From Gammaproteobacteria bacterium (GTDB lineage: Bacteria > Pseudomonadota > Gammaproteobacteria > Pseudomonadales > Azotimanducaceae): 64,000 nucleotides of DNA. The stretch covers positions 62,001-126,000 of the forward strand of contig JAPOVK010000027.1 of the NCBI GenBank assembly GCA_026708185.1. Direction: 5' to 3'. The translations under genes and the position numbers were made by a program. The notes under the pieces are model-generated. The model was not told the origin of the DNA. It made no database searches and saw nothing but the letters and a program-made list of their open reading frames with translations. Below are positions 20,134-41,586 of the stretch, piece after piece. The first letter of the stretch is position 1. Each line of letters opens with the position of its first letter.

Positions 20134-20547
20134 ATGACAGAACCCTCAGCCGGGGAGCGCGAGGGGCCTGCCCCTCGCAGGAACTTCCAGGTCAGCGTGG
20201 AGACGAGGTTCGTGGCCACCGAGTCCGACCCCGCCGAGCCGCGCTACGTCTTCGCCTACACGATCACCATCGCCAATCACGGCAGCGAAGCCGCCCAGCT
20301 ACTGAACCGCTACTGGCTGATCACCGACGGCGACGGCCATCAGAAGGAAGTTCGCGGCCCCGGCGTGGTCGGCAACCAGCCGCGGATAGCACCCGGGGAA
20401 GCGTTCCGCTACACGAGCGCCTGCGTCCTCGAAACCGAAGTCGGTGTCATGCAGGGCCACTACGAGTTCCAGGGCGCCGACGGCGATGCCTTCGACGTGC
20501 CCATCGACGCCTTCACCCTGGCCGCCCCGAACGTCATCGTGCATTGA
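20134..20547 (+). CDS. apaG: ApaG domain protein with palindromic-repeat N-terminus
   Basis: 137 residues. The ApaG fold is clear from about residue 17 on: RYVFAYTITIANHG, RYWLITDGDGH, VVGNQPRIAPGEAF, MQGHYEFQG. The role of ApaG in bacteria is not settled; it is usually linked to apaH and stress nucleotides. The first 16 residues are MT followed by EPSAGEREGPAPRR, encoded by a copy of the dispersed palindromic repeat (20140-20181). AAGGAG stands eight bases before the ATG, which supports translation of the repeat. The apaH gene follows after six bases. Confidence 0.93.
   Translation: MTEPSAGEREGPAPRRNFQVSVETRFVATESDPAEPRYVFAYTITIANHGSEAAQLLNRYWLITDGDGHQKEVRGPGVVGNQPRIAPGEAFRYTSACVLETEVGVMQGHYEFQGADGDAFDVPIDAFTLAAPNVIVH
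20140..20181 (+). repeat. Coding palindromic repeat, copy in apaG
   Basis: One unit of the dispersed family. The dyad core is GCGAGGGG and CCCCTCGC separated by CCTG; other copies have three bases between the arms, so this one has a one-base expansion that shifts the downstream residues to PAPRR. It is translated as EPSAGEREGPAPRR at the extreme N-terminus of ApaG. Confidence 0.9.
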
Positions 20548-20553
20548 CGCGAT

Positions 20554-21363
20554 ATGGCCACCTACATCGTCGGCGACATCCAGGGGTGCTTCCGCAGCCT
20601 CGAACGGCTGCTCGAGCACATCGACTTCGCGGCCGAGGACAGCCTGTGGTGCGTCGGCGACCTGGTCAACCGCGGACCCGGATCCTTGGATACGCTGCGA
20701 TTCACGCGCGCGCTCGGGCCGCGCTTCCGAACGGTCCTCGGCAACCACGACCTGCATTTCATGGCCATGGTCTACGGCGGCCATCCGCATCGCGCCAGCG
20801 ACACGATGGAGGCGCTGCTCGACGCGCCCGATTGTGTCGAGTTGGCCGAGTGGCTGCGCCGACAGCCGCTCCTGATCGACGGTGACGACTTCCTGATCGT
20901 CCACGCCGGGATCCCGCACATCTGGGACAAGAGCACCGCCATCGGAAACGCCCGAGAGGTCGAGGCGGTCATCCGCGGTCCCGGACACGGTGCGTTCTTC
21001 GAGGCCATGTACGGCAACGAGCCACCGCTGTGGGATCCGGACCTGGCCGGCATGCCGCGGCATCGAGCGATCACGAACTACCTCACGCGCATGCGCCTGG
21101 TCGACGCGCACGGGCGTATGGACTTCGCTCACAAGGGCGATCTCCTGGACCTGCCGGCTGGCTATCAGCCGTGGTTCGCCTACCCGCCACGCATCGACGG
21201 AATCCTGTACTTCGGCCACTGGGCGGCGCTCGACGGCGAAACCGGCCATGCCCAACTGGTTGGCCTCGATACCGGCTGTGTCTGGGGACGCCAACTGACG
21301 GCGGTCCGTCTCGACGATCGGAGGCTGTTCGCCGTGGACGCCGTACCGACGGACGTCGCGTGA
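20554..21363 (+). CDS. apaH: Symmetrical bis(5'-nucleosyl)-tetraphosphatase
   Basis: 269 residues of the metallophosphatase superfamily. It cleaves Ap4A to two ADP and also removes NpnN caps from RNA. Metal-binding motifs are [33 protein letters not shown] and LIVHAGIPH, all intact. A further conserved region, YFGHWAAL, is near the C-terminus. It follows apaG by six bases and its stop overlaps the GTG of cca. Confidence 0.96.
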
Positions 21364-22415
21364 AGACGTACCTGGTCGGCGGCGCCGTGCGAGACCGGCT
21401 CCTCGGCCGCAAGCCCGCCGAGAACGACTGGGTGGTCGTCGGTGCAACCCCCGCGGATCTGCTGAAACGCGGCTACTGCCAGGTCGGCCGGGACTTCCCC
21501 GTCTTCCTGCATCCGGACACGGGCGAGGAGTACGCGCTGGCGCGCACCGAGCGCCGCACAGGACCCGGCCATACGGATTTCGTGTGCCGAGCCGATCCGG
21601 GCGTCACGCTGGAAGAGGATCTCAAGCGTCGCGACCTCACCATCAATGCCATCGCCTCCGACGGGCCGGACCTTGTCGATCCCTACGGCGGACGGCGCGA
21701 CATCGAGGCGCGGCTGCTGCGCCATGTCTCGCCCGCTTTCCGCGACGATCCGCTGCGCGTATTCCGCGTCGCCCGTTTCGCGGCCCAACTGCCTGGGTTC
21801 ACGGTTTGCGCAGAGACCACGGCGCTCATGGCCGACATGGTCCCCGAACTCAGGGCGCTGCCCGGTGAACGGGTCTGGCAGGAGTTGGCGAAGGCGATGG
21901 CAGGAACCGCGCCGGCGCGTTTCTACGAGGTGCTGCGCACCCTCGATGGCGCCGACTGGTTCGCCGGCCTGGATCTCGACAAGACCGTGGCGCTCTATTG
22001 GGAGCGTCATTTCTCCGACGGCGAAGTCGCCCTCATCGCCCTCGGCTGGGTCACGTCGCCGGACGCGGTGGAGGCCACGTACAAGCGGCTGCGCGCGCCA
22101 CGCCTGGTCCGACGTGCGAGCACGCTACTGGCCAGGTACGGGCGCACGCTCACCGATGGAAGCGCTTCCGCCGCTGACGTCGTCGACGGCTTCGCGGCCA
22201 TCGAGGCGTTCCGCACTGGCCGGATCGCCGGACTCGTCTTGGATGCCGTCGCGACGTGCGCGGGCAAGTCCCGCGAACCGCTACACGCGCTCGTGGGCGA
22301 ACTGCGGCGCATACGTGTCAATGTCGGGCCCGGACCCGAACACGGGAACGCGCTGCGGGGCGCACGGATCCGCCGCGTGGAGCACCTGCGGGGCACGGGT
22401 AGTCGCGGGGGTTAA
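21360..22415 (+). CDS. cca: CCA-adding tRNA nucleotidyltransferase
   Basis: 351 residues. It adds or repairs the 3' CCA of tRNAs. The nucleotidyltransferase head is strongly conserved: [73 protein letters not shown]. The C-terminal HD phosphohydrolase domain found in E. coli Cca is absent, so this is the shorter class. The GTG start shares four bases with the apaH stop (GTGA). A larger ORF starting at 21030 is only the apaH overlap read in another frame. Confidence 0.93.
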
Positions 22416-22550
22416 GAAAAGGATGGGGTGTCGGCGCCAATCCACCCGGCAAAACGCTCGGCTAGCGTACGTCACCGCCGAGGTGAAGCGCATCGACTGG
22501 CTACCTTCAACACTCCACAGGCTTGGTAAGTACGCGGAGACGGGGAACAC

Positions 22551-23519
22551 ATGAGGACTCGGACACTGGTCCTACTTGCTCTGTGGGTCGGCATGGCTGT
22601 GTCTGCCGGCGAGGACGTGGAACGCTTCCGCCACTTCATGGAGGAAGGCGTCATGGATCCAAGCATGCCGGCTGCGACAGCGAATGAGCTCGTCGGGGAG
22701 GGAATATTCAGTGGGCACGGCGTGGTCGTGGAAATGACGGTGAGGGCGATGGGGGAGCATGCGGCGTATGTCGCCAATGACTTCCTGAGCCGGCACGTCG
22801 TGATTCCAAACCGCGAGTTCGCGCAGGTGCCGGGTCTCAGGGAGTTCTTGATCGAACACTGGCGCGTGCGCAACCGTGAATCCGGGCACAACACATCCGA
22901 CGTGATAGAGCGGGAAACGAGCGACATCGGCAACCTAGAACTCGACGAGACGACCCCGGAGGGCCCTGACAGCCTAACCGAGGGTGTCTGGGAAAGGATC
23001 GGAAAGGAAGTACGCGAGCGGACGCCGGCATGGACCTCGATTCCGTTGATCTTGGCAGTGAACTGGCCCGGCGACCTTGCGGTCGAGCAGTTCCTGTACG
23101 AGATGCTGGATTCGGATGGATCGCCACACATCACGCTGACTACGCTGGCACTGTTGAACGACGGGAAGTTCACGTCCGAGCAGGCGAACTCGTTTCGGGT
23201 GCGGGAACTCGTCAGGTCGGATGCAGGTCACGTGGGGGTGAGTCTCGCCGCCGAGGGCCTGGCACTATCGCGTCCCGAGTATGCGCTGCCGGTGCTGATC
23301 GCCGCAGGTGCAGAGCACCCGGCGGCTCTCGACGCCGTACGAGTAGCGGTGGCTGGCTATACGGACGGGCAACTCGCCCGCTACGCCGATGAACTGCGTC
23401 GTCTTGTGCCGCGGACCCTGGAACTCATGCCTGAGGGTACGGAAAGGGATGCTGTTGAGCGTCTCTTGCGCTTTGCTGAGGACCAAGCGGCCGGGTCAGA
23501 GGCCCGGCTTACACCCTAG
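22551..23519 (+). CDS. Secreted hypothetical protein
   Basis: 322 residues, not recognised. A signal peptide (MRTRTLVLLALWVGMAVSAG) is followed by a soluble, largely helical sequence with no clear catalytic motif. Repeated short helix pairs in the C-terminal half (LALLNDGKFTSEQANSF, LAAEGLALSRPEYALPVLIA, VAVAGYTDGQLARYADELRR) look HEAT-like. GGGGA precedes the ATG by a few bases. The last residues (AGSEARLTP) are encoded by a short palindrome (23490-23508) with a relative near 50718, suggesting the stop is supplied by a repeat element. It begins an accessory stretch after the conserved cca operon. Confidence 0.6.
   Translation: MRTRTLVLLALWVGMAVSAGEDVERFRHFMEEGVMDPSMPAATANELVGEGIFSGHGVVVEMTVRAMGEHAAYVANDFLSRHVVIPNREFAQVPGLREFLIEHWRVRNRESGHNTSDVIERETSDIGNLELDETTPEGPDSLTEGVWERIGKEVRERTPAWTSIPLILAVNWPGDLAVEQFLYEMLDSDGSPHITLTTLALLNDGKFTSEQANSFRVRELVRSDAGHVGVSLAAEGLALSRPEYALPVLIAAGAEHPAALDAVRVAVAGYTDGQLARYADELRRLVPRTLELMPEGTERDAVERLLRFAEDQAAGSEARLTP
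23490..23508. repeat. Short palindrome with AGA loop at the 3' end of the 22551 gene
   Basis: GCCGGGTC and GGCCCGGC form an 8-bp stem (one G-T wobble) around AGA. A related hairpin with the same AGA loop is at 50718-50734. It lies inside the final codons of the hypothetical gene and may act as its terminator, but there is no U-tract. Confidence 0.55.
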
Positions 23520-23851
23520 ACGGGCGTGCGCGCGTTGACCCGGTCCGGTGTGCAACCGGGCCGGGCTACGTCTGCCCGCAATCCGTGCGGGGAACCCGAT
23601 GAACGTGCCAATGGGGCATCAACTTGCCCATGGCACACCACGCCAGAGATTGCGCGGTTGGGACACACGCTCCGCGTCCGGTTTCCCCGCAAGCCCTGCA
23701 AGGTCGTCTTCATGCGGGGGGACAGCGCGTCTCGAGGCAAGCCGCACAGGTGGACCTGACAGATGACCGGCGCGTGCAGATCCTCGGAGGGCTGAGCCCG
23801 GTGACAGGATCGTGGAGCGAGGTCTGATGGCTCTTGTCGACGGTGCGCGAG
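23520..23851. other. 332-base intergenic region, no gene seen
   Basis: It lies between the convergent 22551 gene and the AAA ATPase gene. I inspected both strands. ORFs present are short, mutually overlapping and without family motifs. There is no tRNA-like fold, no CRISPR-like repeat and no clear terminator beyond the AGA-loop palindrome at its left edge. Confidence 0.5.
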
Positions 23852-25027
23852 TCAGGATCCTGGGCATTTGGCCGGCGGGAGGGTTTCCAGCCACTCCGAC
23901 ATCGACGGGATCGCGATGTCGTACCAACCGTCCGGGCTGATCGCCAAAACGCCCCGTTCGACCAGCGCGTTCGCGAACTCCGCGGGGCTTGTGCGGAACC
24001 AGCGGTCTCGGTCTAGGCCCAACCGCAGAATCACTTCCTCGCACAAACCCTCCAAGTCGTACATGCCGCGCGGACGCGTTGCGCGTGCTCCGGAAACGAC
24101 CTGGACAGTAGCGGCGGGTACCTTGTCGAGCACCGTGTCCGCCAAACGGGCGCCGTAGTAGGCCCGGCGGGCTTGGTCGGAGTCCAAGCGCACGGCGTCG
24201 AAGTCCACGCCGGCCAACCCCCCGTCCGTACGCAGGAGTTCCCGGCACAATGCCCGTTGCGCGCCGTGCAGATGCTGGGGCCAGCCGCGCGAAAGCCGTG
24301 CCACCGTCGCGCACGCACTTGCCTTCTCCGCATCGTCGCCCGAAACGCCGTAGGCGTCGAGGAGCTGCGCCGTTGACTCGACGCATTCGCCCTCGTCCAT
24401 GGCACCCATGTTGATGATGGCGTTGTCGGGCAGTCGCTCAAGGCCGCCGATGCTTCTCAGTCTGCCGGAAGTGTGGCTCAGGCCTGCGAACACGACGACC
24501 GTCGGGAACCCCAGTCCCGACATGTGGAGCAATCCCAATCCCGGCTGCTGGTCCTCGCCGACCAACTGCGCTTCGTCGAAGAACAGCACGAGCTTGGCGT
24601 TCTTGGTCGCTTGGTCGGCGACGAAGTTGCGTGCCTCGTCGCCGCCGGGTTTGGCGACCCGGAGATAGGCCCCGACGGCTTGACCGAACGCGGCGATCGT
24701 CCCCCCTGTCGCCGACGCCACGGAAACCGCGGTCCGCCTGATCTGGTCGACCAGTGTCTCTTCGCTGACGAGGTGTCCCCGGCGGATGTCGACGAAGAGC
24801 GTTTCATCCGAATAGCGTTGCCGGAGGTGTTCGACCAAGGACGTTTTTCCGCATCCCGGTGCACCCTGGAAGATCCGGAACGCGGCGGTCCTCTTGTTTT
24901 CCCAGTCCAACGTGTTGAACGAACTCTCGAAATGCCGGATTTCGTCGGCTCGGCCAGCGAAGAACGGTGCGATGTCCCGGTCGCCAAGGTCGATGAACTT
25001 GCGTGTCTGGTCGCTATCGAAAGCCAT
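23852..25027 (-). CDS. AAA ATPase / ORC-like ATP-binding protein, unknown role
   Basis: 391 residues. The P-loop (Walker A) FQGAPGCGKTSL lies near residue 50, Walker B LVLFFDEAQ near 150, and sensor-like residues follow. A C-terminal winged-helix-like region (WFRTSPAEFANALVERGVLAI) ends the protein. Such stand-alone ATPases are common in mobile or defence-related islands, but nothing beside it confirms this. I place the start at the ATG at 25027, giving MAFDSDQTRKF. A longer ORF to 25159 adds a non-conserved leader. A Phd-type antitoxin gene is divergent next door. Confidence 0.65.
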   Translation of the reverse strand: MAFDSDQTRKFIDLGDRDIAPFFAGRADEIRHFESSFNTLDWENKRTAAFRIFQGAPGCGKTSLVEHLRQRYSDETLFVDIRRGHLVSEETLVDQIRRTAVSVASATGGTIAAFGQAVGAYLRVAKPGGDEARNFVADQATKNAKLVLFFDEAQLVGEDQQPGLGLLHMSGLGFPTVVVFAGLSHTSGRLRSIGGLERLPDNAIINMGAMDEGECVESTAQLLDAYGVSGDDAEKASACATVARLSRGWPQHLHGAQRALCRELLRTDGGLAGVDFDAVRLDSDQARRAYYGARLADTVLDKVPAATVQVVSGARATRPRGMYDLEGLCEEVILRLGLDRDRWFRTSPAEFANALVERGVLAISPDGWYDIAIPSMSEWLETLPPAKCPGS

Positions 25028-25145
25028 GGCTAGGAGTGTAGACCCCGCGGGTTGGGGGCGCGGTTTAGCACTACCCGGACACTGCACGGACGCCACGCCC
25101 TTCAGTCGTCCTCGAGCATTCCTCGCAGGCTGTGGTGAAATGTAC

Positions 25146-25457
25146 ATGGAGATGAGCACTCAGAGGATCACCTCATTGTCTGAAAAGGTGTCGATCGCCG
25201 AGGCGCGGCGCAATCTACCGAGCTTGATCCGAGGAGCCGAGCGCGGCAAGGCTGTGGAGCTCACACGGCGTGGCGAACCCGTGGCCGTGCTGGTTGGCCA
25301 CCGCATGTTCGCGCGGCTCACCGCAGGCCGGCGCAGCTTCGCCGACGCCTATCGGGAGTTCGCCCAATGCGTCGACCTCACCGAAGTTCGGCTGGATCCT
25401 GACGCACCCTTCGACGGTGTGCGGGCCTCCACGCCGGGACGCGACGTCCAGCTGTGA
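25146..25457 (+). CDS. Orphan Phd/YefM-type antitoxin
   Basis: 103 residues. The Phd/YefM DNA-binding fold is visible in VSIAEARRNLPSLIRGAERGKAVELTRRGEPVAVLVG, quoted here as two adjacent segments around residues 15-50. The C-terminal tail (FDGVRASTPGRDVQL) matches the segment that normally wraps a PIN-type toxin. No toxin ORF follows: only 63 bases separate it from the end of tsaD on the opposite strand. It is either a solitary regulator or the remnant of a deleted pair. ATGs at 25140, 25146 and 25152 are all possible starts. Confidence 0.75.
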   Translation: MEMSTQRITSLSEKVSIAEARRNLPSLIRGAERGKAVELTRRGEPVAVLVGHRMFARLTAGRRSFADAYREFAQCVDLTEVRLDPDAPFDGVRASTPGRDVQL

Positions 25458-25520
25458 GCAGCGTTATACCGGCTCGCCGACCTCGATCGACCGCCAGATC
25501 GGGAGTTCAGCCACACCCGC

Positions 25521-26531
25521 CTACCCGACCAGGCCGTCAAGCTCGTCCATGGGCCAGCGTGCACGGGTCTTGATCGCGAGGTCGTCGCGCTCGCCGGCCG
25601 CGAGCCGCAGCGCGCCCGCGTAGGCGATCATCGCCCCGTTGTCGGTGCAGAGCGCAGGCGGTGCGTAGATCGTGCGCGGCAGTTCTTCGGCGAGGCGTGC
25701 GCGGAGGCGTCGATTCGCGGCGACCCCGCCGGCGATGACGAAGTCCTCCAAGCCGGTGGCCGCGACGGTGCGCTTGCACTTGATGACCAGGGTCTCCACG
25801 ACGGCGTCCTCGAATGCGCGCGCAATGTCGGCGGTGTCCTGTTCGTCGAGCGGACTGTGCTCGCGCACCGTGTTCAGGGTGGAGGTCTTGAGCCCGGAGA
25901 AGCTCATGTCCAATCCGGGCCGATCGGTCATCGGCCGCGGAAAGCGAAACCGTCCTGGGTTGCCGGACTCGGCGGCGCGAGCGATTGCCGGCCCACCCGG
26001 ATAGCTTAAGCCCAGCATCTTCGCGGTCTTGTCGAATGCTTCCCCGGCGGCGTCGTCGAGGCTCTCGCCCAGCATGGTGTAGCGGCCGACGCCGTCCACG
26101 CGCACGATCTGGCTGTGCCCACCGGACACCAAGAGCGCCGCGAACGGTGGTTCGAGGTCGTCCACGCCGATCAGCGGTGCCAGCAGGTGTGCCTCCATGT
26201 GGTGTACGCCGATGGCGGGGATCCCGAGCCCGTAGGCGAGAGAGCGGCCCACCGTCGCCCCGACCAGCAAGGCACCGACAAGGCCGGGGCCCGCAGTGAA
26301 TGCCACGCCGTCCAAGTCCGCCAAGCGACGTTCGGCGCGGTCGAGGAGTTCGGTCAGGAGGGGTGAAATCTTCTGGATGTGGTCGCGCGAGGCGAGTTCG
26401 GGGACGACGCCGCCGTAACGGGCGTGTAGGTCCACCTGGCTGTAAAGGGACTCGGCGACCAGGCCGGCGTCCGTGTCGTAAAGGGCGACGCCGGTCTCAT
26501 CGCAGGACGTTTCGATGCCCAGTATCAACAT
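25521..26531 (-). CDS. tsaD: tRNA N6-threonylcarbamoyladenosine synthase catalytic subunit
   Basis: 336 residues, the family's usual length. It transfers the threonylcarbamoyl group to A37 of ANN-decoding tRNAs together with TsaB and TsaE. Signatures: [17 protein letters not shown], the metal-binding [11 protein letters not shown], and [12 protein letters not shown], with [12 protein letters not shown] near the C-terminus. I chose the ATG at 26531; the in-frame extension to 26633 lacks family similarity. Divergent from xseA, with 119 bases between that presumably hold both promoters. Confidence 0.96.
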
Positions 26532-26650
26532 GCCGTCTGCCAAAACGCTCCGACCCAGAACGGGTAGCGCCGGGATTCTACGGGATTGGAAGCGTCGCGC
26601 GCGGCACTGCGGCACTCCACGATCCGAGCCCAAGCAGCTAAACTGCCCGA

Positions 26651-30187: not shown

Positions 30188-30188
30188 G

Positions 30189-32197: not shown

Positions 32198-32226
32198 CGG
32201 CGCCTCCGTTCATCTGGCCCTAAGGG

Positions 32227-33483
32227 CTAAGCGTTAAGCTCCTTGATGAGCGCGTCCAAGTCCATCGTCGACTGGGGACGGTCCGCGCGCAGCCACTTGA
32301 GCGAGACGCGATTCTCCGCCACTTCGTCGTCGCCGACAATCACGGCCCAACGCGCACCGCTGCGGTCGGCCTCCCGGATCTGACTGCGCAGGCCGCCGAC
32401 AGCGTGCTGGAGGACGCGCAGGGTCGTGCGGTCGCGAACGTGCTCGGCCACGGCAGCCCCGTAGTGGGCATGCTCGGGCTCTGCCACTGCCACGAACACG
32501 TCCGCCCGCGCATGGCACCGTTGCACGTTCTCCGCGTGCAGCAAGACGACCCGGTCGAGCCCCATCCCGAAGCCGAGCCCGGGCGTCGGCCGCCCGCCGA
32601 GTCGCTCCACCAAGCCGTCGTAGCGACCGCCGGACGACACCGCGTTCTGCGCGCCCAAGGCTTCGGTGACCCATTCGAAGACGGTGTGCGTGTAGTAGTC
32701 GAGGCCGCGCACTAGGAAGGGATTGACCGCGTAGCCGACGTGGGCGGCATCCAAGGCACGCCGCAGTCCATCGAAGTGCTCGCGGCTCGCCCGGTCGAGA
32801 TAGGCATCCATGCGCGGTGCCCCGGCGACGATACCCCGCGTGGTCGCCACCTTGCTGTCGAGAATCCGCAAGGGATTGGTGTCGAGACGACGGCGGCTGT
32901 CCGGGTCGAGGTTCGCGGCGTGCGGCGTGAGGTAGTCGAGGAGCGCCTTGCGGTAGCGAAGGCGGGACTCCTGCGAGCCGATGGTGTTGAGCTCAAGCGT
33001 CACGCGGTCGGCGATCCCGAGCTCCCGGAACATGCGTCCGAGCATGGTGAGCATTTCCGCATCGATATCGGGGCCCGGCAAGCCGAAAACCTCCGCGCCG
33101 ATCTGCGTATGCTCCCGGCTGCGACCTTTCTGCGGGCGCTCATAGCGGAACATCGAACCTCGATACCACAGCTTCGGCGTCTGGTTGTGCAGTAGCCCAT
33201 TCTCGATGCAGGCCCGGGCGCAACCCGCCGTCCCCTCCGGTCGCAGGGACAGGGACTTGCCCTTGCGGTCGGCGAACGTGAACATCTCCTTCTCGACGAG
33301 GTCGGTGGCCTCGCCCACCCCACGGCTGAACAGCTCCGTCGCCTCGATGAGCGGCAGACGGATCTCCGTATAGCCATAACGGTCGAGCACGTCGACGACC
33401 ACCGCCTCGACCTCGCGCCAGCGCCCGGTGACGCCCGGGAGGATGTCGCGCATGCCGCGCACCAGTCGATAGGTTCCGGCCAT
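32227..33483 (-). CDS. hisS: Histidyl-tRNA synthetase
   Basis: 418 residues, class II synthetase. Motif 1 region IRLPLIEATELFSRGVGE, motif 2 RYERPQKGRSREHTQIGAE, the histidine-specific RGLDYYTHTVFEWV and motif 3 GLGFGMGLDRVVLLH are all visible, with the anticodon-binding domain at the C-terminus. In E. coli and Pseudomonas ispG sits immediately upstream; here rodZ lies four bases upstream, so ispG is not in this operon. Confidence 0.97.
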   Translation of the reverse strand: MAGTYRLVRGMRDILPGVTGRWREVEAVVVDVLDRYGYTEIRLPLIEATELFSRGVGEATDLVEKEMFTFADRKGKSLSLRPEGTAGCARACIENGLLHNQTPKLWYRGSMFRYERPQKGRSREHTQIGAEVFGLPGPDIDAEMLTMLGRMFRELGIADRVTLELNTIGSQESRLRYRKALLDYLTPHAANLDPDSRRRLDTNPLRILDSKVATTRGIVAGAPRMDAYLDRASREHFDGLRRALDAAHVGYAVNPFLVRGLDYYTHTVFEWVTEALGAQNAVSSGGRYDGLVERLGGRPTPGLGFGMGLDRVVLLHAENVQRCHARADVFVAVAEPEHAHYGAAVAEHVRDRTTLRVLQHAVGGLRSQIREADRSGARWAVIVGDDEVAENRVSLKWLRADRPQSTMDLDALIKELNA

Positions 33484-33487
33484 CGTC

Positions 33488-34561
33488 TCAACCGCCGAGT
33501 TCGAAACGCGCCACGTTGGTGTCGCTCGTAAACGGTTCGAGGTCGACGGACTCGCCCTCGAACTCCACGCGCACGCCCGGCGCGTTACCCACCAGTACGC
33601 TGAGGGGCACCGGCCCCGCCACGGTGATCGTGCGGCCGTCTTGGCCCAAGTCGCCGAAGAGCTGTCTTCCTGTTGCGTCGTCGACGCTGACCCAAGACTC
33701 GTCGTCGAAGACCACCGTCAATTCACCGACCACGCCGCTCACGACCGCCGGGCCGGCGCCAGGCACCGGCCCCGCATCGGCAATCCCTTCTGGCGTGCGG
33801 TCCGGCTCTTGAACGGCCCCGTCGAGTGCCGGGGCAGCGGCGTCCTCCGCCGTCTGGGGTGCCCCCTCGCGCTCCCCCGCTGAGGGCTCTTCCCTTGCGA
33901 GGGGTGCCCCCTCGCGCTCCCCCGCTGAGGGCTCTTCCCTTGCGAGGGGCGCCCCCTCGCGCTCCCCCGCTGAGGGCTCTGCGGATGCCGCCGTCACACC
34001 TTCGTCAGCCACCCCGTCCTCGGCCGCGCTGTCCACCACGACCGGCCACGGTGACACGTTCGGCGGGCCTGCCGCCGATTCCGTCGCAGGCTCAGCGGTC
34101 GGTGGCTCGACCGACTCGTCGGCGAGGAACGGGAACTGCCAGTCCTGCACGCGCCACGCCGTCCACAACACCGCGCCCAGCGCAATGAGCAGAACCGCCA
34201 CGATGGCGGCGTATCCCAAGGCGATCGGTCGCAACGCCAGTTCCGCCTTGGGCGTCAAACGATGCCGTGGAACGACGACGCTCGGTTCGGGACGGTGCGC
34301 ATCGGCCGCGTCGAAGCGACGCGCCAGTTCATCGGCATCGAGGCCGAGAAGCCGGGCGTAGTTGCGCACGTAACCCCGCGCATAGGGCCGCATCGGCAGA
34401 TCCGCGAAGCGGCCACCCTCGATTGCGGAGACGACGGCGACATCCAAGTGCAGCGCATCGGCCACCTGGTCGGGGGTCATGCCAGCGTCCTCGCGTGCCG
34501 CGCGGAACACCAAGCCGAACTCCTCGGTCGGCGACTCACCGCTCGCGGCTGGCTCCGTCAT
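33488..34561 (-). CDS. rodZ: Cytoskeletal protein RodZ with palindromic-repeat insertion
   Basis: 357 residues. The N-terminal helix-turn-helix (GMTPDQVADALHLDVAVVSAIEGGRFADLP region, about 25-90) binds MreB in homologues. One membrane helix (about 115-140, IALGYAAIVAVLLIALGAVL) is followed by a low-complexity periplasmic linker and the conserved C-terminal DUF4115 beta domain (LTVVFDDESWVSVDDATG). RodZ links MreB to the elongation machinery. The linker holds two full 45-bp palindromic repeats and one partial one, read as EPSAGEREGAPLARE. The stop-start overlap with rlmN is four bases. Confidence 0.93.
   Translation of the reverse strand: MTEPAASGESPTEEFGLVFRAAREDAGMTPDQVADALHLDVAVVSAIEGGRFADLPMRPYARGYVRNYARLLGLDADELARRFDAADAHRPEPSVVVPRHRLTPKAELALRPIALGYAAIVAVLLIALGAVLWTAWRVQDWQFPFLADESVEPPTAEPATESAAGPPNVSPWPVVVDSAAEDGVADEGVTAASAEPSAGEREGAPLAREEPSAGEREGAPLAREEPSAGEREGAPQTAEDAAAPALDGAVQEPDRTPEGIADAGPVPGAGPAVVSGVVGELTVVFDDESWVSVDDATGRQLFGDLGQDGRTITVAGPVPLSVLVGNAPGVRVEFEGESVDLEPFTSDTNVARFELGG
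33857..33980 (-). repeat. Coding palindromic repeat, tandem copies in rodZ
   Basis: Two complete 45-base units (33891-33935, 33936-33980) and one truncated unit (33857-33890). Each holds the dyad GCGAGGGG-NNN-CCCCTCGC and is translated as EPSAGEREGAPLARE in the periplasmic linker. The 45-base period keeps the frame. Confidence 0.93.
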
Positions 34562-35832
34562 GCCGCACCTCTATCGACGAACCGCACTGCCTCGGGCAAA
34601 CCGTAGCGGGCACGCCGTCGAGTCCGATCGTCGAAATCGCCGGTCAACTGGCCACAGGCCGCTGCGATGTCATCGCCCCGCGTCGTACGTAACATGGCCA
34701 CAAGACCGCCGTCGAGGAGTGCCCGTTGGAAGGCGGCAACGCGAGCCGCACTCGGCCGCCTGTACGTCGGAAGCCCGCCGGTCACGGGGAACGGGTTGAA
34801 TGGAATGAGATTGACCATGCAGCGCCAGTCCCGCAACAAGGCAACGAGGTCGCGGGCGTCTGCCAAGGTGTCGTTGACACCCTCGATCAAGGTGTACTCG
34901 AAGGTAATCGGTCGTCGGTCGCCGACGCGTGCAAGGTAGTAGCGGCACGCGGCGAGCAACTCGGCGATCGGGTACTTGCGGTTGATCGGAACCAGCCGGT
35001 TGCGCAACTCGTCCCGGGCGGCGTGCAACGACACCGCCAACGAGACGTCGCTGCGATCCGCGAGGTCGTAGATGCCCGGTACGACCCCGGCGGTGCTAAT
35101 GGTCACCCGACGCTTGGAAATCCCAAAGCCCAGGTCATCCATGAACACGTCCGCAGCATCCATCGTCGCGTCGAAGTTGAGCAGCGGTTCGCCCATGCCC
35201 ATGAAGACGACGTTGGTGATCCTGCGCCCCTCGGTGCTCGACTCGGCCGCGGCCCGCCACACCTGGCCGACGATCTCTGCCCGCGTGAGGTTGCCGCTGA
35301 ATCCTTGCTTGCCCGTCGCACAGAAGGAGCAGTCTAGGGAGCAGCCCACCTGGACCGAGATGCACAAGGTATTGCGCTTGGCCGGGTACTCGTTTTGCGA
35401 GGGGTGCCCCCTCGCGCTCCCCGGCTGAGGGCTCTCTTCTTGCGAGGGGTGTCCCCTCGCGCTCCCCGGCTGAGGGCTCTCTTCTTGCGAGGGGTGTCCC
35501 CTCGCGCTCCCCGGCTGAGGGCTCTCCGGGATCAACACGGTCTCGACGGCGCGTGACTGGCCAACGGAGGCGAGCCACTTGACGACACCATCGCCGGCGC
35601 GGTCCACCAGGTTGAGTTCCGGCGCACGTATCTCGGCGACTTCCTTGAGCCGGGCCCGCAGCGCCTTGCCGATGTCGGTCATGGCGTCGAAGTCGGCGGT
35701 ACCGGCGCGATACAGCCACTTCATCACCTGGGTCGCCCGGTACGGCTTTTCGCCGAGGTCCGTGAAGAAGCCGGCCAGTTCGCGACGCGGCATGCCGAGT
35801 AGGTTGGCCCTGTCGGGGCGTACATCCGCCAT
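34558..35832 (-). CDS. rlmN: Dual-specificity RNA methyltransferase RlmN with palindromic-repeat insertion
   Basis: 424 residues, longer than the ~380 common for RlmN. A radical SAM enzyme that methylates A2503 of 23S rRNA and A37 of some tRNAs. The cluster motif is CSLDCSFCATG, followed by VFMGMGEPLLNFD; the conserved C-terminal Cys that forms the protein-RNA adduct is in RGDDIAAACGQL. Between ETVLIPE and the cluster, about 43 residues of SPQPGSARGHPSQEE-type repeats are inserted. These are three copies of the palindromic element read in a different frame from rodZ. The stop overlaps the rodZ ATG. Confidence 0.95.
   Translation of the reverse strand: MADVRPDRANLLGMPRRELAGFFTDLGEKPYRATQVMKWLYRAGTADFDAMTDIGKALRARLKEVAEIRAPELNLVDRAGDGVVKWLASVGQSRAVETVLIPESPQPGSARGHPSQEESPQPGSARGHPSQEESPQPGSARGHPSQNEYPAKRNTLCISVQVGCSLDCSFCATGKQGFSGNLTRAEIVGQVWRAAAESSTEGRRITNVVFMGMGEPLLNFDATMDAADVFMDDLGFGISKRRVTISTAGVVPGIYDLADRSDVSLAVSLHAARDELRNRLVPINRKYPIAELLAACRYYLARVGDRRPITFEYTLIEGVNDTLADARDLVALLRDWRCMVNLIPFNPFPVTGGLPTYRRPSAARVAAFQRALLDGGLVAMLRTTRGDDIAAACGQLTGDFDDRTRRRARYGLPEAVRFVDRGAA
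35391..35525 (-). repeat. Coding palindromic repeat, tandem copies in rlmN
   Basis: Three 45-base units (35391-35435, 35436-35480, 35481-35525). Core dyad GCGAGGGG-ACA-CCCCTCGC (or with GCA). Here the units are read one base shifted relative to the rodZ, apaG and suhB copies, giving SPQPGSARGHPSQEE. Confidence 0.93.
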
Positions 35833-35858
35833 GGGCTTTACTGTTCGCTTAAGCGTCC

Positions 35859-36284
35859 CTAACGAGAGCAGATTTCATCCGCCGAGAAGAAGTAGTCGAT
35901 CTCCCTTTTCGCCGACGCAGGACTGTCGGAGCCGTGAACAGCATTGGCATCGATCGACTCGGCGAAGTCGGCTCGAATCGTGCCGGGAGCCGCCTCCTTG
36001 GGGTCGGTTGCACCCATGAGTTGGCGGTTGACGTGGATGGCGTTCTCACCTTCAAGCACCTGCACGACGATCGGCCCCGAGCACATGTAGCCGATCAGCG
36101 GCGCATAGAACGGCTTGCCTTCGTGCTCGGCGTAGAAGCCGCCGGCCACTTCAGGCGAGAGCCGCATCATCTTGGTCGCGACGATGCGCAAGCCGCCCTT
36201 CTCGAAACGCGCGTAGATCTCGCCGATGAGGTTCCTGGCCACGGCGTCGGGTTTGACAATCGACAGCGTCCTTTCGAGAGCCAT
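35859..36284 (-). CDS. ndk: Nucleoside diphosphate kinase
   Basis: 141 residues. It equilibrates NTP and dNTP pools through a phosphohistidine. The start [21 protein letters not shown], and [16 protein letters not shown] with the catalytic His, are canonical. The ATG at 36284 follows GGAGG at good spacing; the in-frame extension to 36323 is rejected. A perfect TATAAT stands 63 bases upstream. It is followed by rlmN after 26 bases, the standard order. Confidence 0.97.
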
Positions 36285-36346
36285 TTTCCGCACCTCCACG
36301 AACTCACCGGCAGCGCCCCTCAAGCCGGTGGCGCGTCGCGGCGCGC

Positions 36347-36352
36347 ATTATA
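36347..36352 (-). promoter_or_regulatory. TATAAT -10 element upstream of ndk
   Basis: On the minus strand a perfect TATAAT (36352-36347) lies 63 bases before the ndk ATG. No good -35 hexamer is visible at 16-18 bases; activation or an alternative -35 would be needed. It suggests that ndk-rlmN-rodZ and later genes have their own promoter, separate from iscRS. Confidence 0.45.
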
Positions 36353-36413
36353 CGCCGCCGAGGTTCGCTTGGCTGTGCCCGCGGTTAAGCTCCGCAGTCG
36401 GGCTGCATCCCTG

Positions 36414-37598
36414 TTACCCGGCTCGGTTTAGGTGCTTCTCGCCGGGTTGCAGCCCCGCTAGCGAGGAAACGATCTCGGCGACCCGGCGGCCTGCGAAGTC
36501 CACGTCCTCGACGGTGGTGAACCGACCCACGGTGAAGCGCAGCGAACTCCCTGCCAGGTCGTCCGGCACGCCCATGGCCCGCAGGACGTGCGACGGCTCG
36601 ACCGTCGCGGAGGTGCACGCCGAACCGGAAGACACGGCCACATCGTCGAGCGCCATCAGCAAGGTCTCGCCGTCGACGCCGGCAAAGCCGACGTTGAGGT
36701 TGCCCGGCAACCGGGTGTCGAGGGTCCCGTTCAGCCGAGACCCCGGAATCTGCCCGAGGTGCGACCAGAGCCGGTCCCGCAGACGCCCAACGCGCGCGTT
36801 TTCCTCGACCAGGCTGTCGGCGCACAGCCGGCACGCTTCCCCCAGGCCGACGATCTGGTGGGTCGCGAGCGTCCCCGAGCGCATGCCGCGCTCGTGACCG
36901 CCACCGTGGATCTGGGCGACGAGCTTGACGGGTGGTTCGCGGCGCACGTACAGCGCACCGATCCCCTTCGGCGCGTAGATCTTGTGCCCGGAGATGCTCA
37001 AAAGGTCGATGCAATCCCGCTGCACGTCGATGTCGACCTTGCCCGTGCTCTGCGCGGCGTCGGTATGGAAAACGACATCCCGCGCGCGGCAGGCGGCGCC
37101 GATGGCGCCGACGTCGTTCACGGTGCCGACTTCGTTGTTGACGTGCATGACCGAGACGAGAACGGTGTCCGGTCGCATGGCGGCCGCCACGCTGCTGGGG
37201 CTGACGATGCCGTCGGCATCCGGATCCACGAAGGTGACGTCGGCCCCCTGCTCGGCCAAGTACGCCGCCGTGTCGAGCACGGCCTTGTGCTCATAGGAGG
37301 TGGTGACGAGGTGACCGCCGGCGCGGGCCTCGAGGACGCCCTTGAGCGCGAGGTTGTCGGATTCCGTTGCGCCCGACGTCCAGACGATCTCGCGCGGGTC
37401 GGCATGGATCAGCGCGGCGACGTGCGTCCGCGCCTCTTCCACGAGTTCGGCGGCATCCCAGCCGAAGGCATGCGACGTCGACGCGGGATTGCCGAACGTG
37501 CCGTCCACCAGGAGGCAGTCGCGCATCTTCTCGGCCACGCGCGGGTCCACGGGCGTGGTTGCCGAGTAGTCCAGGTAAACAGCCCGACCGGGTTGCAT
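36414..37598 (-). CDS. iscS: Cysteine desulfurase IscS
   Basis: 394 residues, a PLP enzyme that mobilises sulfur from cysteine for Fe-S clusters and tRNA thiolation. Start region [19 protein letters not shown] is that of IscS; the PLP lysine is in [15 protein letters not shown] and the active-site Cys in [16 protein letters not shown]. The C-terminus is slightly shorter than in E. coli and lacks the usual final LSPLWEM sequence. I chose the ATG at 37598; a TTG-initiated extension to 37652 is possible. No iscU, iscA or hscBA follows; ndk does. Confidence 0.94.
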
Positions 37599-37672
37599 TC
37601 TCCGGATGCGCTTAGATGCCTTGAGAGCGTCTGATGTTATCGAATGAGTCAAGTTCTGTGACGCCCTGGCGG

Positions 37673-37714
37673 GAGAACGCGGAGCGTTCTCGATCGCGTC
37701 GCGCCAGCGACGCG
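37673..37714. repeat. Double palindromic element between iscR and iscS
   Basis: GAGAACGC-GGA-GCGTTCTC (37673-37691) is followed by CGCGTCGC-GCCA-GCGACGCG (37695-37714). The first hairpin shares the GGGAGAA lead and GGA loop with the element at 15427-15477. It lies in the iscR-iscS intergenic region, where it could attenuate or process the transcript. Confidence 0.65.
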
Positions 37715-37715
37715 C

Positions 37716-38177
37716 TTAGACGTGACGCGCCGCGATCAAGTCCGCGCTGTCCTGTCGGCGCGCAACTGAGCGCACGTCCCCGCGACGCACGAGGCTTGCG
37801 AGCGTCACCCGCGTAAGGAAGAGGTGGATCTGCATGCTGAGATCGGCCCAAAGCTCGTGGGTGAGACAGGTGTCGCCGTCCTGGCAGTCGCCGGTGCCGC
37901 CGCAGCGGGTCGCGTCAACGCCTTCGCCAACCGCACTCACCACGTCCGCGACGCTCACCGTCGCCGGATCTCCACGCAGCAGGTAGCCGCCGCCCGGACC
38001 GCGCACGCTGTCCACGAGCCCGGCACGCTTCAACCGCACGAACAACTGCTCCAAGTAGGCTTGCGAGATCCCCTGGCGTGCCGCGATCTCGGCGAGCGGC
38101 GTCGGCTCGGTGTCGGCATGGAGCGCGACATCGAGCATCGCGGTGACGGCGTAACGGCCTTTGGTCGTCAGGCGCAT
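37716..38177 (-). CDS. iscR: Fe-S responsive transcriptional regulator IscR (Rrf2 family)
   Basis: 153 residues. The winged-helix N-terminus [20 protein letters not shown] is canonical. The [2Fe-2S] ligands are complete: Cys-X5-Cys-X5-Cys-X2-His in [20 protein letters not shown]. It senses Fe-S status and represses isc genes when loaded. It is separated from iscS by a 117-base region with two strong hairpins. I could not find a convincing IscR site upstream of either gene. Confidence 0.95.
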
Positions 38178-38271
38178 GGCGTGTGTCGGGCGAAATCAAG
38201 CATCCCTGGGGCGTCGCGTTGACGGTCGGCGGTCTCGCTGACCGGCGCCACGAAGCGTTCTCCGCCCTAGT

Positions 38272-39027
38272 TTAGCGCCTTTTGCCCATCGCGCGTTGGA
38301 CGTGGGTCAGGACTCCGCGCAGGATCGCCACCTCGGTCTCGTCGAGTTCCACCCGCCCGAACAGGCGTTTGAGGCGCGTCATCGTCCGCCGCGGCGCTTT
38401 CGGATCCTCGAATTCAATGGCTACCAGGACTTCCTCGAGGTGCGCATAGAGACCCGCCAACTCGGCGGCGCTGGCTAAGGGACGGTCCCACATCGGCTCG
38501 CGTGCCGCGGATGGCACGCGCTGAACCTTGAAGAGCTCGTAGCACACCACTTGGACCGCCATCGCGAGGTTCAACGAAGCGTAGCCCGGATGCGCCGGGA
38601 TCACGACGTGCCGCGTGCAGCGCTCCAACTCGTCGTTCGTGAGGCCGCTGTCCTCCCGGCCAAACAGCACCGCAAGCGGCGCCCCGGTAGGCCCGGTCGA
38701 AGCCACCCGCGCGGCGAACTCGGCGGCACTGTCGACCGGCAGCGGGATGCGACGTCGTCGTGCGCTGGTGCCCACCACAAGCGCGCAATCCGCGACCGCC
38801 TCGTCCACGCTTTCGAATACCCGCGCCACCCGCAAGACGTCCATGGCACCGGCAGCACGCCACTCGGCTTGCGGATCCGGGAAACGTTTGGGCCGCACCA
38901 GGGCGAGGTCACCGAAACCCATGGTCTTCATGGCGCGCGCGGCACCGCCGATGTTGCCTGGATGGCTGGGCTCGACGAGCACGATACGCACCTTGAATCC
39001 AGGGCCTGCTGCGGTCTCGGTTGGCAT
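38272..39027 (-). CDS. trmJ: tRNA (cytidine/uridine-2'-O-)-methyltransferase TrmJ
   Basis: 251 residues. A SPOUT-class enzyme that methylates the ribose at position 32 of tRNAs. Signatures: VRIVLVEPSHPGNIGGAARAM, LAVLFGREDSGLTNDELERC and HPGYASLNLAMAVQVVCYEL, the knotted SAM-binding region. A C-terminal helical extension follows, as in E. coli. Gene order trmJ-(cysE)-iscR is known from Pseudomonas, but cysE is absent here. Confidence 0.95.
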   Translation of the reverse strand: MPTETAAGPGFKVRIVLVEPSHPGNIGGAARAMKTMGFGDLALVRPKRFPDPQAEWRAAGAMDVLRVARVFESVDEAVADCALVVGTSARRRRIPLPVDSAAEFAARVASTGPTGAPLAVLFGREDSGLTNDELERCTRHVVIPAHPGYASLNLAMAVQVVCYELFKVQRVPSAAREPMWDRPLASAAELAGLYAHLEEVLVAIEFEDPKAPRRTMTRLKRLFGRVELDETEVAILRGVLTHVQRAMGKRR

Positions 39028-39043
39028 CGATGCAACCTACCAC

Positions 39044-39060
39044 AGGGGCTCCGCGCCCCT
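39044..39060. repeat. Short hairpin upstream of trmJ
   Basis: AGGGGC (39044-39049) and GCCCCT (39055-39060) with a TCCGC loop form a compact hairpin in the 142-base divergent region between trmJ and the SDR gene. It could be a small dispersed element or an attenuating structure in the trmJ leader. Confidence 0.35.
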
Positions 39061-39169
39061 TACGCCGTTGGTAGCGCTGAAACGCCATCACGACGACGTC
39101 CGCGATTCGCGTTACGATGGCGCGCGAACAGCCAGGAGGTAGCCCGCGCGTTGCCGCGGCGGGAATGCG

Positions 39170-39982
39170 ATGCTTGAGGATCTGACGCTGACCGGCCGCA
39201 GCGCCGTGGTGACCGGCGGCGGGCGCGGCCTTGGCCGCGCCATGGCGAAAGCGCTGGCCAAGGCCGGGGCCAATGTGCTGGTAGCGGCGCGGACGCGGGC
39301 CCAAGTCGACGACGCCGTGGCGGAGATAAACGCCGAGGGCGGCCGTGCGGTGGCTTGGGTCGCCGACGTGACCGACTCTGCACAGGTGGACGCGATGGTG
39401 GACGCTTGCGTCGATGCCTTCGGCGCAATCGACGTGATGATCGCCAACGCGGGCGGCGGCGGTGTGCAAGGTGCCTGGGAGTTCTGGGAGTATCCCGACG
39501 ACGCGTTCGAGACGGTCCTCGCCACGAACCTCAAGAGCAACTTCTATTGCGGGCGGGCAGCCGCCCGGCACATGGTCGGTCGCGGCCAGGGCGGCGTCAT
39601 CATCAACACGTCCTCGGGCACCGCGTTGCGCGGCAACCGGTCGTTCGCCTACCCGACTGCGAAAGGCGGCCAGATCAGCTTGACCAAGAGCATGGCCACC
39701 ATGCTGGGCCCCCAGGACATCCGCGTGAACGTGATCGTGCCGGGCTTCGTCGCACAACGGCCAGCCAACGACGAGCGCGAGGCCGAGACCCGACGCCAGC
39801 GCGGCGAACGCATCCCCGTTCGGCGGATCGGCGAGTGGTGGGAACTCGGCCCGTTGGCCGTGTACCTGGCGTCGGACGCGTCACGGTATGTGACCGGACA
39901 ACTGTTCATCATCGACGGCGGCGGGCTCGCCGGCGGCATCGGGCCGACGGGGTTCGTGCCGCGGCATCCGGAAAGCGACTGA
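39170..39982 (+). CDS. SDR-family NAD(P)-dependent oxidoreductase
   Basis: 270 residues, a complete classical SDR. The cofactor motif TGGGRGLGRAMA is near residues 15-25, the structural IANAGGGG near 90, and the catalytic Ser (INTSSGT) with YPTAK (Tyr and Lys) near 160. The C-terminus DGGGLAGGIG is also typical. The TGA stop overlaps the ATG of a second, degenerate SDR (TGATG). Substrate unknown. This pair and the S41 gene are insertions in the conserved secF-suhB-trmJ neighbourhood. Confidence 0.88.
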   Translation: MLEDLTLTGRSAVVTGGGRGLGRAMAKALAKAGANVLVAARTRAQVDDAVAEINAEGGRAVAWVADVTDSAQVDAMVDACVDAFGAIDVMIANAGGGGVQGAWEFWEYPDDAFETVLATNLKSNFYCGRAAARHMVGRGQGGVIINTSSGTALRGNRSFAYPTAKGGQISLTKSMATMLGPQDIRVNVIVPGFVAQRPANDEREAETRRQRGERIPVRRIGEWWELGPLAVYLASDASRYVTGQLFIIDGGGLAGGIGPTGFVPRHPESD

Positions 39983-40620
39983 TGGACCACTTCGAACTGG
40001 CCGGAAAGACGGCAGCCCTGGTTGGGGCGGGGAGCCCCGCGGCGGATGCCATCGCCGCCGCCTATCGGGAAGCCGGCGCCGAGGTCGTGCCGGTGACGCG
40101 CCTCGAGAACCTCGAAACGCCGTTCGACATCGTCGCAGTCGCCCAGGACGCATTTCTCGCCAAGCCCATTGCCGAGATCGGCGATGACGAATTCGAGCGC
40201 GTTCTGGCCGCCAATCTGGGCGGGGTTTTCGCTGCTCTGCGGGCCGCCCAGGGTGCGATCCGTCGCCCGGGGCGAATCGTCGTCGTGACCAGCGTGCTCG
40301 GCGAGCGCGGACTGCCGAACTGCTCCGCGTACGCGGCTGCTCACGGCGCCGTGCACAATCTCATCCGCGCGGTGGCCCAGGAACTCGCTCCGGCGGACAT
40401 CTCCGTCAACGGCATTGCGCTCGGCTGGATGGACTGGATGCACGACCGTCTCGATCCCGCGGACCCCGAAGCGGCACGCGCCGTACGCTTCACGATCCTC
40501 AAACGGGCCGGCACGGCGGACGACCTAGGGGCGCTGGCCGTCTGGCTCTCCGGCAGCGGTGCCGGCTTCGTCACGGGCCAGATCTTCACCGCCGACGGCG
40601 GCCTAACCACGCATCTCTAA
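39982..40620 (+). CDS. Degenerate SDR-family protein
   Basis: 212 residues with overall SDR fold (AANLGGVFAALRAAQGAIRRP, ISVNGIALGWMDWM, GFVTGQIFTADGG). Two key features are changed: the Rossmann motif reads GAGSPAADA instead of TGxxxGxG, and the catalytic YxxxK reads YAAAH, so the active-site Lys is His. The region between strands beta2 and beta4 is also shortened. It may be a non-catalytic partner of the SDR just upstream, with which it overlaps by one base. The start at 39982 is fixed by this overlap. Confidence 0.8.
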   Translation: MDHFELAGKTAALVGAGSPAADAIAAAYREAGAEVVPVTRLENLETPFDIVAVAQDAFLAKPIAEIGDDEFERVLAANLGGVFAALRAAQGAIRRPGRIVVVTSVLGERGLPNCSAYAAAHGAVHNLIRAVAQELAPADISVNGIALGWMDWMHDRLDPADPEAARAVRFTILKRAGTADDLGALAVWLSGSGAGFVTGQIFTADGGLTTHL

Positions 40621-40643
40621 GCGAAAAGACGAGCAAGGTCCTC

Positions 40644-41507
40644 GTGGAACCGATGGTGAACATCGCCCTGCGCGCCGCGCGCAACGCCGGGCGCATCATC
40701 CTTCGTGCGATGGACCGGGTCGATACGCTCACCATCGAGGAGAAGGGCCGCAACGACCTGGTCTCGGAGATCGACCGCCAGGCGGAGGACGTGATCGTCG
40801 AGACCATCCTGCGCACCTTTCCCGACCACGGCGTGCTCGGCGAGGAGCGCGGCGAGAGAAAGCCCTTAGCCGGGGAGCGCGAGGGGGCACCCCTCGCAAG
40901 CAGATCAAACGATGCCGAGTACACCTGGTTGATCGATCCCCTGGACGGGACCACCAACTTCCTGCACGGCATCCCCCATTTCTGTACGTCCATCGCAGTC
41001 ACCCGGGGTGCCGCCCTGCTGCACGGCGTGGTGGTCGACCACGTCCGCAACGAGCAGTTCAGCGCGAGCCGCGGAGCCGGGGCGCTGCTCAACGGACGCC
41101 GCATTCGCGTTGGGCGCCGGGACCGCCTCGACGACGCCATCGTCGCAGGCGGCTTGCCGTTTGCCAGCGTCGCGGCGCACCTCGACGCCTACACCGACGT
41201 CCTCCGCGACTTCATGGGCCGATGCCGGACCTTGCGCCGGCAAGGCGCCGCCGCCCTCGACCTGGCCTACGTCGCGGCGGGGCGCCTCGATGGTTTCTTC
41301 GAGATCGGGCTGAGGCCTTGGGACATGGCCGCCGGGGCCGTCATCGTGCGCGAAGCCGGCGGCTTCGTGGGCGATGCGGCTGGGGGCGACCGGTTCATGG
41401 CCACCGGCAACGTCGTCGCCGCCAATCCCAAGGTGTTCCGGGACATGCTGCGCGTCATTCGCAAGAGTGCCACGGAGCATGCGGATGTGAACCTTTCCGA
41501 AGGCTGA
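40644..41507 (+). CDS. suhB: Inositol-1-monophosphatase SuhB with palindromic-repeat insertion
   Basis: 287 residues. The metal-binding motifs are WLIDPLDGTTNFLHG and WDMAAGAVIVREAGG. SuhB hydrolyses inositol phosphate and, in E. coli, also joins the rRNA antitermination complex. The start GTG at 40644 gives MEPMVNIALRAAR, matching the E. coli N-terminus position for position. Between GEERGE and the WLIDPLDG motif about 14 extra residues (PLAGEREGAPLAS) are encoded by the palindromic element at 40859-40900. The metal ligand Glu in EE lies just before the insertion. Confidence 0.94.
   Translation: MEPMVNIALRAARNAGRIILRAMDRVDTLTIEEKGRNDLVSEIDRQAEDVIVETILRTFPDHGVLGEERGERKPLAGEREGAPLASRSNDAEYTWLIDPLDGTTNFLHGIPHFCTSIAVTRGAALLHGVVVDHVRNEQFSASRGAGALLNGRRIRVGRRDRLDDAIVAGGLPFASVAAHLDAYTDVLRDFMGRCRTLRRQGAAALDLAYVAAGRLDGFFEIGLRPWDMAAGAVIVREAGGFVGDAAGGDRFMATGNVVAANPKVFRDMLRVIRKSATEHADVNLSEG
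40859..40900 (+). repeat. Coding palindromic repeat, copy in suhB
   Basis: A single unit with dyad GCGAGGGG-GCA-CCCCTCGC, translated KPLAGEREGAPLAS in the same frame as in apaG and rodZ. It is inserted in a loop between the first metal-ligand region and the WLIDPLDGTT motif of SuhB. Confidence 0.9.
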
Positions 41508-41586
41508 ACGTCCAACCGCGAAACGTTTGACAGGGCTTCGCCGCAGGCATTCAATCCCCGTCGGGTCCAACCTCGAGAATCGCGAC

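Follow-up and report, generated by a model that had tools for sequence, protein, structure and literature searches.

A REP-like palindromic repeat inserted in frame into protein-coding genes of a gammaproteobacterial family

Rickettsia palindromic elements (RPEs) are dispersed palindromes of ~150 bp (PMC10969869) that lie in frame within unrelated proteins and are tolerated there, and two of them, RPE-4 and RPE-6, are repetitive extragenic palindromes (REPs) of the CGTC type (PMC3733652). Intragenic REPs are on record from several phyla; for gammaproteobacteria, Di Nocera et al. 2013 (PMC3733652) describe them in uvrA of Thioalkalivibrio, recB of Xanthomonas and genes of Stenotrophomonas. Two further systems are PARCELs, palindromic DNA encoding tandem 25-residue amphipathic repeats of variable number, many of them in membrane-targeted proteins (PMC2996958), and the QMITEs of Coxiella, non-autonomous gammaproteobacterial repeats of 150-400 bp with direct repeats and ~50 copies each, some of which lie in frame within open reading frames (ORFs) (PMC5896051). 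Here we analyze a short hairpin repeat found in apaG, rodZ, rlmN and suhB of a gammaproteobacterium of the family Azotimanducaceae, in a stretch of 64,000 nucleotides (the window; contig JAPOVK010000027.1, positions 62,001 to 126,000, assembly GCA_026708185.1). The element is real and recently active. It is very probably a non-autonomous, REP-like dispersed element of ~42 nt that forms arrays with a 45-nt period, is apparently selfish and behaves like an RPE, yet belongs to a separate family.

The window contains seven exact GCGAGGGG-N3/4-CCCCTCGC dyads (starting at 20159, 33897, 33942, 35397, 35442, 35487 and 40879), whereas 100 shuffles contained none. An eighth copy, the third rodZ unit (33851..33889, minus strand), has an intact 5' half and a degraded 3' stem arm. 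All eight units are in sense orientation, in frame and inside the four genes, in the numbers that an earlier note on this DNA had given (one in apaG, three each in rodZ and rlmN, one in suhB). A scored scan defined the unit as GAGCCCTCAGCSGGGGAGC followed by the 8-bp hairpin and a 3-nt tail, mostly AAG or ATG. Depending on whether the loop has 4 or 3 nt, the conserved length is 42 or 41 nt; the 45 bases that the note had taken for the full unit are instead the period at which units follow one another in arrays. Scanning 864 kb yielded 42 units scoring at least 29 of 38, and the reversed-sequence control gave no score above 28; at the threshold of 29 used here, a handful of the lowest-scoring units may be due to chance. 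We also observed a long form of the unit, with a period of up to 66 nt and an extra GCCGC/GCGGC hairpin within the 5' stem arm, in nine copies recognized by eye among 13 non-standard 5' matches (L181, with three copies at 66-nt spacing, L018, L030, L144, L149, L159 and L182); two of them are sense and in phase 0 (defined below) in called genes.

The genome from which the window derives (G000; 5.13 Mb, 65 contigs) carries ~225 units, 190 with a 4-nt loop and 35 with a 3-nt loop (at most one mismatch), compared with none for a backwards-pattern control. The units were placed relative to genes in a sample consisting of the window and 85 other stretches (1,385,525 bases, 1.39 Mb), in which gene calls came from a hexamer model that had itself been trained on this DNA after unit masking. 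Unit densities in this sample are biased because about half of the stretches, 45 plus some of the first 40, were picked for known units. We found 178 units (4-nt loop in 137, 3-nt loop in 34, and seven fitted with loops of 1, 2 or 5 nt) in 91 clusters, of which 52 are genic, 38 intergenic and one mixed, with 83% of the sample called coding and ~17% non-coding. Thus, the statement that the repeat is never intergenic holds for the window and fails for the genome, and the proposal that it is essentially a coding element is not supported. In a second data set, 80 loci from named genomes among the matches listed, we counted 160 units; of the 91 clusters that they form, 35 are genic, 53 intergenic and 3 mixed. 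Unit density is uneven, with no unit across the 240 kb of G000:C23:1-240000 (L037-L048) against a genome mean of ~1 per 23 kb; in the sister species G007, units likewise occur in only 3 of 20 stretches.

Compared with RPEs, the unit lacks the CGTC tag, is only ~42 nt long, forms head-to-tail arrays and resides in a gammaproteobacterial family, and is thus set apart from them by description, although the likeness that the note had seen, in-frame insertion into unrelated proteins, is genuine. Where CGTC REPs, including RPE-4 and RPE-6, have a terminal CGTC (TGTC, CCTC) tag and a CCA-type tail, the present unit has a GGGGAGC flank and ends mostly in AAG or ATG. It resembles GTAG REPs, chiefly GTAG-1, in its 8-bp stem, 3-4 nt loop, 3-nt tail, size, hundreds of copies and partly intragenic location in gammaproteobacteria, and it falls within the ranges given for them (stem 5-13 bp, loop 2-20 nt, high copy number). 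However, it carries no GTAG (or GTRG-like) tag, has no units beside the Y1 transposase genes examined, possesses an added conserved 5' half, and about half of its clusters are genic. Furthermore, GTAG and CGTC REPs mostly form head-to-head dimers and rarely head-to-tail ones, whereas in the own genome all 87 pairs of neighboring units within 100 nt of each other point the same way and none is opposed. PARCELs differ in that the present unit encodes 14-15 hydrophilic residues, largely in housekeeping proteins, and QMITEs differ in length, direct repeats and copy number. No title or abstract describing this unit family was found among the open-licence papers listed; the note goes too far, however, in suggesting that gammaproteobacterial elements of this sort lack a good description, given the intragenic REPs in PMC3733652.

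Orientation and spacing of the units differ between genes and intergenic regions. Genic clusters of the own genome comprise 44 sense and 8 antisense, and those internal to genes (>25 residues from both ends) 21 sense and 2 antisense, whereas clusters between codirectional genes comprise 7 in the same and 9 in the opposite orientation (44:8 versus 7:9, p=0.002). Within genes, all 41 of 41 tandem spacings are multiples of 3, compared with 33/45 between genes (p=0.0002; 31/43 when mixed clusters take three spacings rather than one). In the second data set, genic clusters were 32 sense to 3 antisense (18 to 1 for internal ones) and spacing was a multiple of 3 in 21/21 in-gene and 26/44 intergenic cases; in a G007 sample of 398,000 bases, the corresponding values were 8 to 1 for orientation, and 12/12 and 1/3 for spacing. 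The most hydrophilic consensus frame (phase 0; grand average of hydropathy, GRAVY, -1.98) is used by 28 of the 44 clusters in sense orientation and, among the 21 that are internal to genes, by 17. Within the window two phases occur, an EPSAGEREG-type peptide in apaG, rodZ and suhB and SPQPGSARG in rlmN. The ratio of synonymous to other codon changes from the consensus is no higher for coding than for intergenic copies: 14:11 in 38 phase-0 coding units versus 38:26 when 73 intergenic units are translated in phase 0 (units with 4-nt loops only; p=0.81). Thus, the coding insertions look selected for frame and strand, and the peptide itself is not visibly conserved. The spread of DNA palindromes through protein-coding genes can thus be quantified in a system other than Rickettsia, with the intergenic copies as an internal control that separates selection for frame from insertion bias.

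It is conceivable, though rather doubtful, that evolution acting on the element itself has fitted the hairpin to genes as its habitat, and that it could make the housekeeping proteins of a whole bacterial lineage carry in-frame tandem repeats that vary in number and diverge between sister species. The observations behind this idea are the frame-keeping 42-nt unit and 45-nt period, the absence of stop codons in five of the six frames and the very hydrophilic peptide of the favored frame. A different role, as signals in RNA that terminate transcription or mark processing sites, for example, is suggested by the predicted RNA fold of the 45-nt unit, a stable double hairpin of -24.3 kcal/mol. We consider this very improbable: compared with shuffled sequences the z-scores reach only modest values (-1.3 to -2.8), the stem is usually followed by AAG or ATG and not by a T run, many units lie deep within ORFs whose Pfam domains are intact, and the sole Rfam match in window positions 33400-41600, a range that leaves apaG outside, is away from the units and far below the cut-off. 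The even orientation of clusters between codirectional genes in the own genome also speaks against signals, yet the second data set is less even in this respect (18 same, 10 opposite among the matches listed).

Alignment of the host proteins with orthologues, a check that the earlier note had proposed, confirmed that the units are insertions, as relatives lack them and sister species differ in their number. In apaG (20134..20547, plus strand; ApaG domain at residues 29-113), the unit (20140..20181, plus strand, 4-nt loop, peptide EPSAGEREGPAPRR) is located immediately 3' of the start codon and is absent from G007: the latter reads ATG AGA GAG TTC, the own genome ATG, unit, TTC, a net gain of 42 nt. 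The single suhB unit (40860..40900, plus strand, 3-nt loop, peptide KPLAGEREGAPLAS) falls within the Inositol_P domain match of its gene (40644..41507, plus strand); G007 has seven in-frame units at the same site, and 19 other aligned suhB orthologues have none. The rlmN gene (34558..35832, minus strand) carries three units with 3-nt loops (35484..35524, 35439..35479 and 35394..35434, minus strand; residues 103-147) between the RlmN_N (10-68) and Radical_SAM (158-322) domains. In an alignment of this linker (VLIP to TLCIS) from 16 genomes of the genus, G007 has two units and G005 three diverged ones, two of which score at least 30, and none scoring 30 was found in the other 13 genomes; G009 and G014, similar to G005 around the linker, read bare VLIPE-AGRATLC. 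In rodZ (33488..34561, minus strand), two units with 3-nt loops (33939..33979 and 33894..33934, minus strand) and the degraded third occupy residues 195-237, between HTH_25 (19-79) and RodZ_C (283-354); G007 rodZ has no unit, and the rodZ linkers of the two species align poorly. Antisense arrays of diverged units (GGGGTGC variant) were also seen between the rlmN stop and the matched rodZ start in G005 and G009 (L191 2781-2914, L201 1955-2178).

Elsewhere, two places that are empty in the own genome are occupied in G007, L224:10236 by one unit (net 45 nt) and L224:2877 by two (net 81 nt), and at L182:11648 G007 has one unit where the own genome has three. The net gains at sites empty in one sister species (45, 81 and 42 nt) are all multiples of 3. 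The unit pair at L224:2877 has a common substitution, GAGCCATC, as expected for local duplication, and units of equal length are more similar within arrays (identity 0.966) than between arrays (0.893). Flanks of clusters show a purine preference, and GAGCC, the start of another unit, follows within 10 nt downstream in 24 of the 91 clusters.

These differences in unit number between sister species, seen in suhB, rlmN and another called gene, could also mean that the insertions are adaptive and that housekeeping proteins use the arrays of 15-residue repeats as tuned linkers, and the presence of units in the rlmN linker of two distant lineages and the strong frame and strand bias would fit this explanation. 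It is nevertheless improbable in our view: the host proteins are unrelated, the 19 other suhB orthologues and 13 of the 16 rlmN genes mentioned above have no units, and changes in coding units are not more synonymous than those in intergenic ones.

Of the 21 hosts of internal sense clusters, 20 (all except L167:5239-6216) were run against Pfam. According to counts read from the tables by eye, the unit lies outside the listed Pfam stretches in 11 and inside one in 7; the other two have several Pfam stretches, of which the best is shown alone. Among the hosts, Lon carries five units between the lid and protease domains, trigger factor four on the C-terminal side of its C-terminal domain, ZipA four ahead of the FtsZ-binding domain, a pseudouridine synthase three between the S4 and catalytic domains, RecQ one in the zinc-binding domain and poly(A) polymerase one. 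AlphaFold2 models built with orthologue alignments predict the units of SuhB and RlmN to be disordered: the predicted local distance difference test score (pLDDT) falls below 50 at residues 77-89 of SuhB (unit at ~73-86; mean pLDDT 89.7) and 106-150 of RlmN, the latter model being weaker (mean 72.9), with further low stretches including the C-terminal end. The sites are thus often termini, linkers or loops, as had been suggested from the window. The one and seven units in SuhB of the sister genomes offer a natural test of how much disordered insert can be tolerated by a core protein.

As in GTAG-1 REPs (Di Nocera 2013, PMC3733652; Nunvar 2010, PMC2817692), the short stem of the unit has a loop of 3-4 nt and stands between a 5' flank that is unpaired and a tail of 3 nt, so the unit might be a true GTAG-type REP mobilized by a REP-associated tyrosine transposase (RAYT) of its own genome. 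Consistent with this, Y1_Tnp is present in all eight genomes of the genus with at least 18 dyads and in only two of the eight with at most 7 (Fisher p=0.007), a test that overstates the case because the 16 genomes are related. However, the 4-mer preceding the AGC-stem is GGGG in 173 of 178 units, another sequence in five and GTAG in none, and the Y1 genes examined are not flanked by units. No Y1 match was obtained in G021 despite its 36 dyads, G008 combines only 5 dyads with 14 matches to the G000 Y1 protein, and G005, G009 and G014 have 26-41 dyads without the G000 Y1 subfamily, each having another Y1 match. We therefore consider the RAYT explanation unlikely and do not adopt it: inside the genus copy number follows the presence of Y1, yet there is no gene linkage and G021 is an exception. 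The Y1 (HUH) transposase family itself is multi-copy in G000, G007, G008 and G010 (for example G000:C23:71133-71891; L016, L251); many of its copies are partial, several are at contig ends, and in five aligned copies the similarity ends just past the ORF.

Returning to a non-autonomous, apparently selfish element, a trans-acting enzyme would copy the unit to new places; it might be an HUH (Y1-type) transposase, the kind that has been proposed for REPs. Slippage or recombination would afterwards lengthen or shorten the arrays locally in 45-nt steps, as suggested by their homogeneity and the differences in copy number. Selection would purge most insertions into genes, keeping those in frame, in sense and at termini, linkers or surface loops, so that the survivors are expected to be translated as disordered 14-15-residue repeats with no evident function.

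Several points weigh against this reading. The 20-kb stretches that surround this genome's two Y1_Tnp genes (L037, L055) contain no unit, nor does one lie within 1.5 kb of either gene or at the five aligned copies of the Y1 transposase. The few empty sites aligned gave no clear case of target-site duplication, which together with terminal inverted repeats would mark a MITE. The intergenic orientation in the second data set leans towards 'same', so the insertion process might cause part of the sense bias. Genes were called with a home-made hexamer model and not a curated pipeline, and 23 of the 44 sense clusters are within 25 residues of a gene end, where starts or stops may be in error. Neither clusters nor units can be counted as independent events, and two internal antisense clusters do exist, one in a gene matching DNA polymerase III delta' and one in a gene matching an aminotransferase; in both, the unit falls outside the domain.

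The exact directional pattern was present in 34 of 200 genomes of the family, distributed over the genera g1 (16/16), g7 (9/9), g318 (8/9) and g299 (1/7), and was found in none of the other 33 genera sampled from the family and none of 368 other genomes of the class; this pattern overlooks diverged units, and a search of 38 relatives (the own genome included) used the symmetric dyad. With regard to a possible vehicle, no exact match was obtained in viral contigs and no match in phages, plasmids or E. coli genomes. Thus, in the genomes sampled, the unit hardly occurs outside three genera of one family, which bounds the hunt for an enzyme moving REP-like elements. That the pattern recurs across 34 genomes makes an artefact of assembly or binning next to impossible, even though arrays stand at the start or end of several contigs: the single-contig genomes G012 and G013 carry 4 and 5 units, and G470 and G511 carry 26 and 11, with all listed places on contig C1.

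Named hosts among the matches listed are metagenome-assembled genomes (MAGs) of Gammaproteobacteria and Pseudomonadales, Candidatus Azophilus (Gammaproteobacteria, Pseudomonadales, Ca. Azotimanducaceae) and one MAG of Binatota; the names COS, RHO, IRC and CAR in the matched records presumably denote reef-sponge samples. The contig binned as Candidatus Binatota (L084, WTHD01000279.1; GC 0.549) has a sense unit at 80-121 in an ORF that by eye resembles hsdR of type I restriction systems, reflecting either horizontal transfer or misbinning. In the window, the ORF next to suhB (41527-44115) contains 153-nt direct repeats (51 codons) at 41680-42546, with DLNGDATDDVLLRH-like repeats, which we take to be possibly of the FG-GAP/VCBS type.

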